From: Paenibacillus sp. JZ16
Lineage (GTDB): Bacteria > Bacillota > Bacilli > Paenibacillales > Paenibacillaceae
Reading direction: 5' to 3'
NCBI RefSeq assembly: GCF_015326965.1
Contig: NZ_CP017659.1
Span: 5,391,001 to 5,455,000 of the forward strand
DNA: 64,000 nucleotides
The notes beneath the pieces were generated by a model. That model did no database searches. It was not told the origin of the DNA and saw only the letters and a program-made list of their open reading frames with translations. Of this stretch, positions 2,988-8,405 are shown piece after piece. Every line of letters begins with the position of its first letter. Positions within the stretch are counted from its first letter, which is position 1. Both the position numbers and the translations under genes were made by a program.

Positions 2988-3016
2988 TTTACTTTTGAGA
3001 AGAATTCTCATATAAT
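2988..3016 (+). promoter_or_regulatory. SigA-type promoter of the iclR-family gene
   Basis: TTTACT at 2988-2993 (4 of 6 consensus), a 17-bp spacer, and a perfect TATAAT at 3011-3016. It lies 49 bp upstream of the regulator's start codon. Confidence 0.6.
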
Positions 3017-3028
3017 TCTTGTAACCAG

Positions 3029-3045
3029 GTTTCATAGAATGAAAC
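3029..3045 (+). promoter_or_regulatory. Palindromic operator candidate in the iclR leader
   Basis: GTTTCATAGAATGAAAC is a perfect 7-bp inverted repeat with a 3-nt centre. It lies a few bases after the predicted transcription start, a position suited to repression. The same GTTTCA-N5-TGAAAC pattern occurs at 7130-7146 before acnA. Autoregulation by the IclR protein is an inference. Confidence 0.6.
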
Positions 3046-3064
3046 AGGAGAGGAGCTGGTCGGG

Positions 3065-3805
3065 ATGGAAGACCGTAAATTGACGGTGCGTGCTGTAGAG
3101 CGGGCGCTTGATATATTGATGTGTTTTACGAAAGGCAGTGAACTTGCCCTCACAGAGATTTCTACCCTTATCGGATTACATAAAAGTACCGTTCATCGGC
3201 TGCTAACAACGCTGGAAGACAACGGATTCGTTGTGCGTAACAAAGAGACGGAGAAATATCGGCTCGGCTTGAAGATATGGGAGCTGTCCATGCATCTGTC
3301 TCAAAGCGACGACCCGGCGATTCGCCTTCTGCCCGCGATGGAGGCCTTACGGGATCAGCTTGGGGAAACGGTGAGCTTGTATTTAAGAGACGGTTCGGAT
3401 CGTCTTCGGATTCAAGCGGTTCAGAGCAACCAGGGCATTCGGCGGGTCGCCCAGGTCGGAGTGCGACTTCCGTTGTCGGTTGGCGCATCCAGCAAGGTAC
3501 TGGTGGCCTTTGCGCCACCGGCCGATCAGGAGGAGCTGCTGAATGCGCCGGATTGGCCGGAATCCGTCGACCGGATCGTTTACCGGCAGCAGCTGGCCGA
3601 AATACTGGAGAAGGGATACGCGATCAGCATCGAAGAGCGCGAGCCTGGAGCCGCTGCGGTATCGGTACCCATCTTTGACCGGAATGGTCAAGTGGCGGCA
3701 GCACTGTCGATGTCAGGGCCAGTCACCCGCCTGTCAGCGGAAACGCTTCGCGAACATGCGCCAATCCTGATGGAGGCGGCACGGGAAATGGGAATGATGA
3801 TTTAA
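3065..3805 (+). CDS. IclR-family transcriptional regulator
   Basis: This 246-residue DNA-binding regulator has an N-terminal winged helix (about residues 7-68: AVERALDILMCF, LTEISTLIGLHKSTVHRLLTTLEDNGFV) and a C-terminal IclR effector domain (about 80-245: LGETVSLYLRDG, RVGVRLPLSVGASSKVLVAF-like segment, GYAISIEEREPGAAAVSVPIFD). IclR proteins bind small carboxylates or aromatics and usually repress nearby genes. Length is normal. The ATG at 3065 is preceded by AGGAGAGGAGCT. It is monocistronic, with its own promoter and terminator. The palindrome in its leader recurs at the acnA promoter, which points to central carbon metabolism as its target. Confidence 0.92.
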   Translation: MEDRKLTVRAVERALDILMCFTKGSELALTEISTLIGLHKSTVHRLLTTLEDNGFVVRNKETEKYRLGLKIWELSMHLSQSDDPAIRLLPAMEALRDQLGETVSLYLRDGSDRLRIQAVQSNQGIRRVAQVGVRLPLSVGASSKVLVAFAPPADQEELLNAPDWPESVDRIVYRQQLAEILEKGYAISIEEREPGAAAVSVPIFDRNGQVAAALSMSGPVTRLSAETLREHAPILMEAAREMGMMI

Positions 3806-3850
3806 TTCATTCTATTGCGAGAGTGCGGACAGCATCACTATAAGTTATTG

Positions 3851-3896
3851 AATGACCGGGCGGCCCCATGTGATACAGCTGCCCGGTCATTTTTTA
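3851..3896 (+). terminator. Intrinsic terminator of the iclR-family gene
   Basis: AATGACCGGGC and GCCCGGTCATT form an 11-bp stem followed by TTTTTT. Confidence 0.9.
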
Positions 3897-4008
3897 TGCG
3901 GGAACGAGCGTTCGATAACGAGCAAAAAGACCTTACCCATGATCTTGGTGATCGTAGGAACGGTCCTTTTTGCCGTGACGGCATCGCTATGTAATAGGCA
4001 AGGCCAGC

Positions 4009-4164
4009 TTAAGTCAGCTTCGTGTTCTTTTCCTTCATTTTCTGATTAAGGATCTCTTGAAAGGTGAGGGCTTTATCCGTCGTTTCGTCCTTCTTAGGCG
4101 CTGCCACCGGCTGCGGCCGTTGGTATTGATATTGGAACGAAGCTAACGTATGTATTTTGATCAT
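4009..4164 (-). CDS. Small conserved-looking protein, 51 residues
   Basis: A short basic and polar protein (MIKIHTLASFQYQYQRPQ at the start, ALTFQEILNQKMKEKN near the end). It has no signal peptide or membrane segment. The start is the ATG at 4164, behind a perfect AGGAGG with 9-nt spacing, which is the main evidence that it is a gene. A longer upstream reading has no such site. The acnA gene upstream has its own terminator, so this is probably an independent small transcript. I do not recognise the family. Confidence 0.6.
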   Translation of the reverse strand: MIKIHTLASFQYQYQRPQPVAAPKKDETTDKALTFQEILNQKMKEKNTKLT

Positions 4165-4267
4165 AGGTACTTTCCTCCTGGGTATGGATTTTCCGGAAAT
4201 GTTTTTTACCAATTAACCTTCATGGCGTCATCCGAAACGGAAAATCCAATATTCAGGAAAAAAGTAC

Positions 4268-4315
4268 CGAAAAATAACAAAATCCCCATCATCCATAAGC
4301 GGATGATGGGGATTT
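4268..4315 (-). terminator. Intrinsic terminator of acnA
   Basis: A perfect 15-bp stem (AAATCCCCATCATCC and its complement, 6-nt loop). On the minus strand it is followed by TGTTATTTTT. Confidence 0.9.
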
Positions 4316-4348
4316 GTTCCTAAGGCTAAAGCGCCTGTAGGGTGTGTC

Positions 4349-7066
4349 TTATTGGTTCGATGCGATCATTTGACGCAGTACCGTTTGGAGGATACCTCCA
4401 TTGTGGTAGTAGTCCACGTCCACCATGCTGTCGAGGCGGGCGATAGCTTGGAACTCGAATTGGGTTCCGTCTTCACGCGTAACGACAACGGTCAATTCCT
4501 GACCAGGCTTCACATCGTTGCTGAGGCCCAGAATATCGAATGTCTCGCGGCCGTTCAGACCAAGGCTCTTCCAGCCGTGACCTTCCTGGAACTGGAGCGG
4601 AAGCACGCCCATGCCCACAAGGTTGGAGCGGTGAATACGCTCGAAGCTTTCAGCCAGCACGGCTTTGACGCCGAGGAGATACGTACCTTTTGCCGCCCAG
4701 TCACGGGAGCTTCCTGTACCGTATTCTTTACCGGCGATAACGACGAGGTTCTGTCCGCCTGCTTGATAATTCATCGAAGCATCATAGATGGACATCACTT
4801 CTTCCGTTGGCAGGTAAGTCGTAACGCCGCCTTCCGTCCCTGGAGCTACCTGGTTACGGATCCGGATGTTAGCGAAGGTACCGCGCATCATGACTTCGTG
4901 GTTACCACGGCGGGAGCCGTAGGAATTGAAGTCTTTGCGCTCCACGTTGCGGTCGCTCAGATATTTACCGGCCGGGCTGTTCACTGCAATGTTACCCGCT
5001 GGGGAGATATGGTCCGTTGTAACGGAATCGCCCAAGAGAGCCAGCACGCGCGCTTCCTTGATGTCCTGGATGTCGTTCAGGCCGTTGCCCAGGCCTTCAA
5101 AGAATGGCGGGTTCTGGATGTAAGTGGATTGATCGTCCCACTCGTACAGTTCGCCTTCAGGAACAGGAATCTTGTTCCAACGCTCATTGGCGGTAAACAC
5201 ATTCTCGTATTTCTCACGGAAAGCGTCAGGGCTAACGGCTTGACCGATCGCTTCGCGGATTTCCGCACTCGTTGGCCAGATGTCTTTCAGATAGACAGGC
5301 TCATTGTTCGGATCGTAGCCGATCGGTTCGTTCTGCAGGTCGATGTTCACTGTGCCTGCCAGAGCGTAAGCAACAACCAATGGCGGCGAAGCCAGGTAGT
5401 TGGCTTTGACTTGAGCATGCACGCGGCCTTCAAAGTTACGGTTACCCGACAATACGGCGGCTACCGTCATGTCGTTGTCGGCAATCGCTTCGCTCACTTC
5501 ATCCGGCAATGGACCGGAGTTACCGATACAAGTTGCGCAGCCATAGCCTGCAACATAGAAGCCGAGAGCTTCAAGGTAGTGCAAGAGACCGGACTTCTCG
5601 AGGTAGTCGGTTACGACAAGGGAACCTGGGGTCAAGCTGCTCTTCACATAGCCAGGCTTCGTCAGGCCGCGTTCAACGGCTTTCTTCGCCAGGAGACCTG
5701 CGCCGAGCATAACGCTTGGGTTGGACGTGTTCGTACAGCTGGTGATGGCTGCGATAACAACGGCACCCGTTCCCATTTCACTGGTAGAGCCGTCTTTATG
5801 ATTGACTTTAACGGTTTCCGCAATTTTCTCATCGCTGAGGCCGTATCCGCCTTTGTCGATTGGCGTACGGATGATATCGTTAAAGTTCTGTTTCATGTTG
5901 GTAAGCTCGATACGGTCTTGCGGACGCTTCGGTCCAGCCAAGCTCGGTACAACCGAAGCGAGATCCAATTCGATCACATCAGAGAACTCAGGGTCCGGCG
6001 TATCTGCCGTACGGAACATGTTTTGCGCTTTATAGTAGCTCTCCACGAGCTCAACCTGCTCATCGGTACGGCCCGTATTCCGGAGATAAGCCAAGGTTTC
6101 GCTATCAACCGGGAAGAAGCCGATGGTAGCGCCGTATTCCGGAGCCATGTTGGCAACCGTTGCGCGGTCAGCCAGGCTGATGTTAGCAAGACCAGGACCG
6201 TAGAATTCTACGAATTTGCCTACAACGCCTTTCTTGCGGAGAAGCTCGGTTACTGTGAGGGCAAGGTCGGTCGCTGTTGCGCCTTCCGCCAGGCTGCCCG
6301 TCAGCTTGAAGCCGATAACTTCAGGCGTTACAAAATACAGCGGTTGGCCGAGCATGCCGGCTTCCGCCTCGATACCGCCTACGCCCCAGCCCACAACGCC
6401 AAGACCGTTGATCATGGTTGTATGGGAGTCCGTACCTACGAGGGAATCAGGGAAGACCAGCGTTTCGCCGTCAACCGTCTTCGTAGCCGCTACGGAAGCA
6501 AGGTATTCCAGGTTAACCTGGTGAACGATCCCCGTTCCAGGAGGAACTGCGCGGAAGTTGTTGAATGCCGTTTGAGCCCAGCGGAGGAAGCGGTAACGCT
6601 CTTCGTTACGCTCAAATTCAAGCTTCATATTCGTTTCCAGAGCTTGATCGGTACCAAAAGCGTCAACCATGACGGAATGGTCGATAACGAGGTCAACCGG
6701 AACGAGAGGGTTGATCTGTTTAGGGTCGCCGCCGGATTTTTTAACGGTGTCACGCATAGCTGCAAGGTCTACGACAACCGGAACACCGGTGAAGTCCTGC
6801 AATACGATACGGGCAGGAATGAACGGAATTTCCTTGTTGTTGTCGCGTCCTTCATTCCACTTGGACAAGAGTTTTACATGATCTTCGGTAATTGCACGTC
6901 CGTCGAACTGACGAACGGCTGCTTCCAGCAGCACCCGAATGGAGAAAGGAAGCTTGGATACACTGCCGTATCCTTGCTCTTCGAGAGCCTGCAGGCTGAA
7001 ATAACGGTAACTTTTACCGCCCACCTCCAGGTTGCGGGAGATGGAGAATTGATCCTTTGCTGGCAT
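4349..7066 (-). CDS. acnA: Aconitate hydratase A
   Basis: Aconitase isomerises citrate and isocitrate in the TCA cycle in the cytoplasm. The 905-residue length is normal for the AcnA/IRP1-like family (B. subtilis CitB). The 4Fe-4S cluster cysteines are visible in [13 protein letters not shown] (about Cys443) and [11 protein letters not shown] (about Cys509 and 512). The C-terminal swivel domain has [13 protein letters not shown] and [13 protein letters not shown]. The ATG at 7066 follows AAGGAGG at 7-nt spacing. In bacilli the family can act as an RNA-binding regulator when it loses its cluster; nothing here tests that. It is monocistronic, with a promoter at 7172-7200 and a palindromic operator candidate at 7130-7146 shared with the iclR-family gene. 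Confidence 0.98.
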
Positions 7067-7085
7067 TGATGAACCTCCTTAAGTC

Positions 7086-7160
7086 ATTTCATAAATCGAA
7101 TAAAGACAGTTTGAGATAAATCCTCTTTCGTTTCACTAGGTGAAACCTAATTTCATAAAT
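7086..7160. repeat. Pair of 11-bp direct repeats around the acnA operator
   Basis: ATTTCATAAAT occurs exactly at 7086-7096 and again at 7150-7160, with the 17-bp palindrome between them. Each copy is itself nearly palindromic. The second copy lies around the predicted start of transcription. They could be binding sites for a second regulator; CcpC, which controls citB in B. subtilis, is one candidate, but its known dyad is different. Confidence 0.45.
7130..7146 (-). promoter_or_regulatory. Palindromic operator candidate in the acnA leader
   Basis: GTTTCACTAGGTGAAAC is a perfect 7-bp inverted repeat with a 3-nt centre, located about 20-35 nt after the predicted acnA transcription start. It shares GTTTCA-N5-TGAAAC with the site at 3029-3045 in front of the iclR-family gene. 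Confidence 0.6.
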
Positions 7161-7171
7161 TAACTACTTTA

Positions 7172-7200
7172 AGTATACCGTTTTCAACTCGCTGCGTAAA
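7172..7200 (-). promoter_or_regulatory. SigA-type promoter of acnA
   Basis: On the minus strand: TTTACG (4 of 6), a 17-bp spacer, then TATACT (5 of 6). It lies about 105 bp upstream of the acnA start codon. The rest of the 316-bp gap between acnA and the next gene (7201-7382) shows nothing further I can name. Confidence 0.6.
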
Positions 7201-7382: not shown

Positions 7383-8405
7383 ATGAACAGTCTGAAGCAA
7401 GCAGAGAAGCCTTGGAAGCAAGCTCTATATATTTACGTCAATCAATATAACCAAAATCGCGTGGACTATTCTTCAGGCCTGAAAGAGCAGATTGTAGCGG
7501 ATCTGAATTTCCTGGTAGAGAGAGGAGAAAGGCAGTTTCGGCTGCAGTCGTGGTATGCGCAGCGGGAGGCAATGCCGCTTAAGAGCGAGACTCGTGCCCG
7601 CCTCCTGCGCATTCTGAGGGAGACGGAGGATGATGTGGTCGCGGACGTGCGGCTTCACAGCGTATTTTATTATGAAAAAAGAGGGATGACGCACCGGGAG
7701 GATACGGTTTTTAAAGAGCGGCTGACGCTGATCCGGGACGGGGATGCCTGGTTGATCGTAGGCATCGAACGTCTGCAGGATGAACGCCATCCCCTGCAAA
7801 GAGCCGATGTTCCGGCAGCAGGCGCGGATGTGGCTGGTAGAGAGCCGTCGACTCCCTTTATGAACGGACGCGTATACGCCGCCGGCAGCAGCCCGCGGTC
7901 CGGCCGTTACGAGCGTGAAGCCGCAGCTGCATATGCCGACCGTTGGTGGGATTCCGGGAATCCGGAGTTTGAGGAATTTGACGTGGATTGCACGAATTAT
8001 ATCTCCCAGTGCCTCTTTGCAGGCAAAGCCCCAATCCACTATACTGGTAAAAGAGAAACGGGATGGTGGTACAAGGGGTACGTAAACCAACGGGAATGGT
8101 GGAGCTACAGCTGGGCGGTATCGAACAGCTTTGCGCATTATTTGAACGCCAGTGCCTCGGGGCTGCGGGCCGAGCGGGTGGAGCGTCCCGAGCAGCTGAT
8201 GCTGGGGGATGTCATCGTATACGACTGGGATGGTGACGGCGCGTTTCAGCACAGCACCATCGTGACGGCGTTTGACGCGGGCGGTATGCCGCTCGTTAAT
8301 GCACATACGGTGTCCAGCCGTCATCGCTATTGGGACTACCGGGATTCCTACGCTTGGAATGATAACACCGAATACCGGTTTTACCATATCCCCGATTATT
8401 TTTAA
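7383..8405 (+). CDS. Amidase-domain (Amidase_6-like) protein
   Basis: A 340-residue protein with a C-terminal putative cysteine amidase domain (about residues 180-340), of the NlpC-like fold often called Amidase_6. The likely nucleophile is the Cys of [16 protein letters not shown], and the likely His is in FQHSTIVTA, followed by LVNAHT. The N-terminal 130 residues resemble the region usually found ahead of this domain in bacillar proteins. There is no signal peptide, so it is either cytoplasmic or exported at sporulation by another route. The ATG at 7383 follows AGAGGAGGAGAG. It lies 45 bp upstream of ddl, so a cell-wall role is plausible but inferred. Confidence 0.8.

Follow-up and report, generated by a model that had tools for sequence, protein, structure and literature searches.

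We describe a conserved 26-bp DNA element, TGWAAY-N3-GTTTCA-N5-TGAAAC, that precedes both the gene of an IclR-family regulator (here called iclR) and the aconitase gene acnA in a 64,000-nucleotide stretch of Paenibacillus sp. JZ16 (the window, positions 5,391,001-5,455,000 of the single 7.42 Mb contig of its genome, G000). Very probably the IclR-family protein binds this element and represses its own gene together with acnA, with a small acid as the signal for its release. Aconitase carries out a central, iron-dependent step of the tricarboxylic acid (TCA) cycle, and its control in spore-formers is known mainly through CcpC and CodY in Bacillus. The observation itself is real and well conserved: computation on this and related genomes gives the sites, shows that they are conserved, places them after promoter-like sequences and finds them together with the regulator, and autorepression with repression of aconitase is their probable meaning.

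Two perfect palindromes, GTTTCATAGAATGAAAC at 3029-3045 and GTTTCACTAGGTGAAAC at 7130-7146, lie exactly where an earlier, sequence-only reading of this DNA had placed them, and the full 64 kb holds no third exact copy of the 17-mer, as that reading had also said. Its 17-bp extent is right for the palindrome, but the full site is longer, 26 bp, and includes a third half-site that it had missed. Specifically, stacking the sites from the sample of related genomes described below gives three half-sites of alternating direction, the third lying 3 bp upstream of the palindrome at both genes. The iclR operator thus spans 3020-3045 on the forward strand, with the third half-site TGTAAC at 3020-3025, and the acnA operator spans 7130-7155 on the reverse strand, with TGAAAT at 7150-7155. 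The two genes are convergent, and the two sites flank the pair: iclR (246 aa) runs from 3065 to 3805 on the forward strand and acnA (905 aa; TIGR01341, 1411.7 bits against a cut-off of 945) occupies 4349-7066 on the reverse strand. Within the window, the core at up to two mismatches is found at seven places against 2.45 expected from shuffles, and the full (composite) form at up to three mismatches at three places against 0.07 expected.

The regulator belongs to the IclR family, since its helix-turn-helix domain (PF09339, 61 bits) and its C-terminal effector domain (PF01614, 110.8 bits) both score above their gathering thresholds. Against the named NCBIfam models compared with it (the equivalogs IclR, KdgR, BhcR and AllR, and the PcaR/PcaU subfamily) it stays far below every cut-off, the best score being 135.3 of 350. 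The window protein is 99% identical to its counterpart in Paenibacillus lautus, and the only names listed for the regulator in the sources are IclR family, glycerol operon regulatory protein and KdgR.

Both palindromes also lie just downstream of sigma-A-like promoters, as had been proposed, with the boxes read by eye. For iclR the predicted promoter is TTTACT (2988-2993)-17-TATAAT (3011-3016), spanning 2988-3016 on the forward strand, and for acnA it is TTTACG (7195-7200)-17-TATACT (7172-7177), spanning 7172-7200 on the reverse strand; therefore both operators fall at or just after the predicted start point. Promoter positions in relatives come from a consensus scan, which is no evidence of function. 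Among the relatives listed, acnA promoters read TTTAC(G/T)-17-TATACT and the palindrome begins about 24-28 bp past the -10 box in nearly all, while at iclR a clear promoter is seen in the 17 closest genomes, where the palindrome begins 11-12 bp past the -10 box, and in some other families.

These positions suggest how the system would work. The protein encoded at 3065-3805 would recognize the 26-bp element as its operator, probably as a dimer or tetramer, and once bound at or just past the transcription start of iclR and acnA it would block transcription, giving autorepression and repression of aconitase. A small acid would release the protein, citrate or another TCA-cycle intermediate being the most likely candidate, and the conserved arginines R126, R127, R134 and R192 are possible acid-binding residues. 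Some members of the family, such as PcaU and PobR, are activators, and the protein might by analogy activate acnA instead of repressing it; however, the palindromes sit in a blocking position past the -10 box at both genes, and we consider activation quite unlikely.

Over the whole genome, G000, the 17-mer has four exact occurrences against two for a reversed control pattern, and the composite form is found at up to two mismatches likewise at four places against two. Only the iclR and acnA sites match the composite form exactly; of the remaining two matches, one lies before a methyltransferase gene with one mismatch and the other has two mismatches. The two further exact 17-mers (L001 and L002, positions 1501-1517 in each) are found one just behind a RecX-like gene and the other where a MarR-like gene meets an ABC exporter, gene types being judged by eye. 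They look like chance occurrences, and we set them aside because they are absent from the composite matches. A chance origin of the iclR and acnA palindromes themselves was considered and is rejected on their conservation in the order and beyond.

To follow the sites within the order we used 80 Paenibacillales genomes, the window's own included. A match to the regulator is present in 76 of the 80 and a match to AcnA in all 80. Among the 74 readable iclR upstream regions (G024 and G078, with incomplete regions, were left out) the core is exact in 63, has one mismatch in four and two mismatches in five, and is not found in two. For acnA, 80 regions from 79 genomes were available, one genome having two copies and G025 being left out as incomplete; the core is exact in 67 and has one mismatch in eight, and the five remaining regions are those of G050, G058, G072 and G023 and the second copy of G057. 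Counted by genome, the acnA site is present within one mismatch in 75 of the 76 genomes with iclR and in none of the three without an iclR match (G050, G058 and G072), and the single miss among the iclR-bearing genomes, G023, has N bases within its acnA site. The third half-site is kept too: TGAAAT is found at all 35 non-redundant acnA sites, and TGTAAC is the main form at iclR, where each base is 78-97% conserved over 36 non-redundant sites; TGWAAY is matched by 75/75 acnA sites and 54/67 iclR sites. In the stacked sites the half-sites are nearly invariant and the spacer is variable. As a separate observation, the acnA match at G030:C2:3834717-3837631 is split into two separate pieces, as would result from a broken gene or from an error in sequencing.

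The same alignments bear on the idea that the palindromes are not DNA operators but RNA hairpins in the 5' leaders, bound for example by aconitase in the manner of iron-responsive elements. Bacillus subtilis aconitase does bind RNA, both elements lie within predicted leaders, and the iclR leader, folded at minimum energy, contains the hairpin (z -0.94). However, the acnA leader folded in this way lacks it (z -0.11), the third half-site lies outside the stem, and the same element occurs before other genes (VOC and methyltransferase genes, see below) and between divergent genes. A covariation test on 47 of 71 non-redundant sites, picked by hand, found no compensatory changes in the stem, with 93.9% of paired cells against 94.2% in shuffled alignments and a score of 0.084 against 0.089, and the half-sites are near-invariant in sequence. 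A palindromic stem that does not covary points to a DNA site, and we therefore reject the iron-responsive-element-like hairpin as extremely unlikely.

The element also occurs outside the order. Of 299 genomes from 118 genera drawn across the class Bacilli, 147 genomes in 66 genera have the regulator at a threshold of E <= 1e-50. We took 40 loci from outside the order, chosen for their spread over families, and looked for the core up to 300 bp upstream of iclR, a stretch that may include the acnA-side site at divergent loci; it was found within one mismatch in 28 of the 40 and with two mismatches in seven. acnA is present in 25 of these loci, 21 times divergent from iclR and four times convergent with it, and carries its site within one mismatch in 24 of the 25. 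The starts of the divergent pairs are 210-439 bp apart in 19 of the 21, and the region between them holds two sites in 13 pairs, one in seven and none in one. At the acnA sites outside the order the third half-site is within one mismatch of TGWAAY in 16/25, mostly as AGAAAC or CGAAAC.

In two families the regulator stands beside a different aconitase. A search at E <= 1e-150 gave no AcnA in three genomes of family f46 and two of family f28 (family labels are ours), and in the one locus examined for each (L272, 4793-8741; L256, 8069-10875) the gene after iclR, in the same orientation, encodes a 644-aa PRK07229-type aconitase, a distant relative of AcnA, scoring 1007 and 1017 bits against a cut-off of 612. 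Here too iclR carries its own site, exact in L272 and with one mismatch in L256. A gene resembling isocitrate dehydrogenase (IDH) comes next after the aconitase in L272, and such a gene lies directly after iclR in L245 and L278 (two of the four f16 loci), in L267 (f38) and in L271 (f45). These genes score best, at 123-139 bits, with the model of NADP-dependent isocitrate dehydrogenase, and the one in L271 also matches PF00180; because the scores are below the cut-off of 509, the substrate is only presumed.

Further composite matches point to other candidate targets. Of 17 such matches picked by hand for inspection, 11 lie before genes of four kinds, namely two kinds of methyltransferase, a VOC (glyoxalase-like) gene and an amidohydrolase, the kinds being assigned by models for most and by eye for the rest. 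The VOC gene (PF00903, similar to 2qqz) has an orthologue of at least 53% identity in 19 of the 80 genomes, and a composite site with at most three mismatches lies 13-31 bp before the start in 18 of the 19, or in 14 of 15 when the four genes that first drew attention are discounted. Four more distant VOC genes have no composite site before them, and G000 itself has no match to the VOC gene at E <= 1e-20. For the methyltransferase of PF08241, a composite site with at most three mismatches was found in six of 29 genomes, including G000, where the gene (G000:C1:4166418-4167164; L379, L399), an S-adenosylmethionine methyltransferase outside the window, has its site 53 bp before the start with one mismatch. 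The amidohydrolase is preceded by a composite site with one mismatch in G002 and G006. From these sequence positions the VOC gene and the methyltransferases are likely to be other targets of the regulator.

Several observations weigh against the proposed regulation or limit its reach. The sequence-only reading had regarded numerous scattered copies of the motif as an argument against an operator; exact copies are few in the genome, but with one mismatch the core is found 42 times in G000 and the reversed control pattern 14 times, and weak extra sites may therefore exist. Six of the 17 inspected composite matches precede no suspected target, and two of these six lie inside open reading frames. 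The iclR promoter is weak or differently placed in many of the Paenibacillus genomes listed. That reading had likewise counted loss of the motif in relatives keeping both genes as an objection. In the order sample motif and genes stay together, save on the iclR side of G052 and G055, the two readable regions without a core, but outside the order the picture is mixed. The iclR-side core was not found in five of the 40 loci. In 30 orthologue-bearing genomes from outside the order, mostly of families where acnA had not been found beside iclR, acnA is present in 24 with 27 copies in all, of which 12 have a site within two mismatches and 15 do not. Families f16, f31, f58 and f12 keep iclR and acnA with no clear acnA site, apart from a distant two-mismatch match at one f16 copy, and f35 is mixed. 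The link between iclR and acnA is therefore not universal, and it is these families that argue most strongly against its being so.

A related question is whether the element could be the operator of another conserved regulator, with iclR merely one of its targets. G100 speaks for this, as it keeps an exact acnA site with no close iclR orthologue (best identity 33%), its assembly being a draft of about 100 contigs, and the case counts against the IclR protein as the binding partner. G100 is one of 60 genomes taken as lacking an orthologue of the regulator, of which 51 have acnA; among the 30 best matches read, 27 have no acnA site within two mismatches, and G159 and G094 have one at two mismatches. 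A direct search of G159 found only distant IclR proteins (34% identity). Against another regulator, the motif has the GTT-11-AAC form that PMC8222616 describes for IclR-family proteins, the site accompanies the iclR gene from family to family, all three readable genomes of the order sample that miss iclR also miss the acnA site, and the IclR protein is the only match to its own sequence in G000 at E <= 1e-3. We judge another regulator to be very unlikely. The earlier proposal that the IclR protein acts on both genes is accordingly strongly supported for the shared operator, by its conservation, by its absence from acnA in the three readable genomes of the order sample without iclR and by the lack of a second match to the protein in the genome at E <= 1e-3; binding, the repressing direction, the oligomeric form and the ligand are what we infer from this pattern.

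If repression by the IclR protein is correct, Paenibacillus and many other Bacilli would use a different and simple aconitase regulator, and a protein so far named only for its family, as glycerol operon regulatory protein or as KdgR would gain a function. The ligand and the regulatory logic would be directly testable, the operator being already mapped to the base, and there would be a starting point for the role of the VOC and methyltransferase genes that share it. On a wider reading, which we offer tentatively and consider unlikely, this would be a core TCA-cycle control of much of Bacilli, separate from CcpC: one IclR-type sensor of an aconitase substrate or its stray isomer would control AcnA or the PRK07229-type aconitase, whichever the cell uses, with isocitrate dehydrogenase added in some families. 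In Paenibacillales it would also control a small clean-up set (VOC enzyme, methyltransferases and amidohydrolase) that deals with a by-product, trans-aconitate for instance. The clean-up role for these genes is a guess; identification of the methyltransferases as trans-aconitate methyltransferase finds no support in the models, the NCBIfam Tam models giving at most 45 bits against a cut-off of 297 among the methyltransferases compared.

Beside acnA, at 7383-8405 on the forward strand, lies a gene with an Amidase_6 domain (PF12671), which we list as a neighbour of the locus and make no claim for as a target. A gene of this kind adjoins iclR in all seven distant loci that were chosen by eye for its presence (L272, L267, L271, L278, L246, L252 and L275), and the neighbourhood is therefore old.

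Among known systems, Escherichia coli IclR, the repressor of the glyoxylate bypass, belongs to the same protein family and also controls central carbon metabolism, with other targets; the present protein differs from it, scoring 96.6 against a cut-off of 380 for NF008601. In Bacillus, CcpC controls citZ, citB and citC; it is a LysR-type protein that answers to citrate and recognizes dyad elements, ATAA-N7-TTAT, centred near -66 and -27 (PMC13288900). Our candidate resembles CcpC in its targets, as a putative repressor of aconitase and isocitrate dehydrogenase genes, but it is IclR-type, with a site at or downstream of the predicted start, and is no member of the CcpC system. The trans-aconitate regulator reported in B. 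velezensis is also LysR-type (PMC11495376). Close to the present case as well are the group 1 regulators of the IclR family, whose operators have three boxes and a GTT-11-AAC motif (Suvorova and Gelfand 2021, PMC8222616). There, three-box operators are predicted for 32 orthologous groups, the motif is over-represented in Firmicutes, and the regulons mainly concern aromatic compounds, with sugars and sugar acids as well. The element described here agrees with these operators in its GTTYCR-like half-sites, in the 11 bases from GTT to AAC and in the alternating third box, and by sequence it belongs to this class. The third box is shared with PcaU, for which the same paper reports that it is required for binding; the present regulator differs from PcaU in scoring 124.2 against a cut-off of 284.75 for TIGR02431, and PcaU serves aromatic catabolism. 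The main text of PMC8222616 contains no aconit-, acnA, citrate, COG1048 or Paenibacill-, and its supplementary tables, which lie outside this check, may list the group; the titles and opening lines of abstracts listed for the topic, which do not cover that supplement, likewise name no IclR-family regulator linked to aconitase in Bacilli. The operator is thus of a type already known for IclR regulators, and the aconitase regulon that it appears to govern is probably new.

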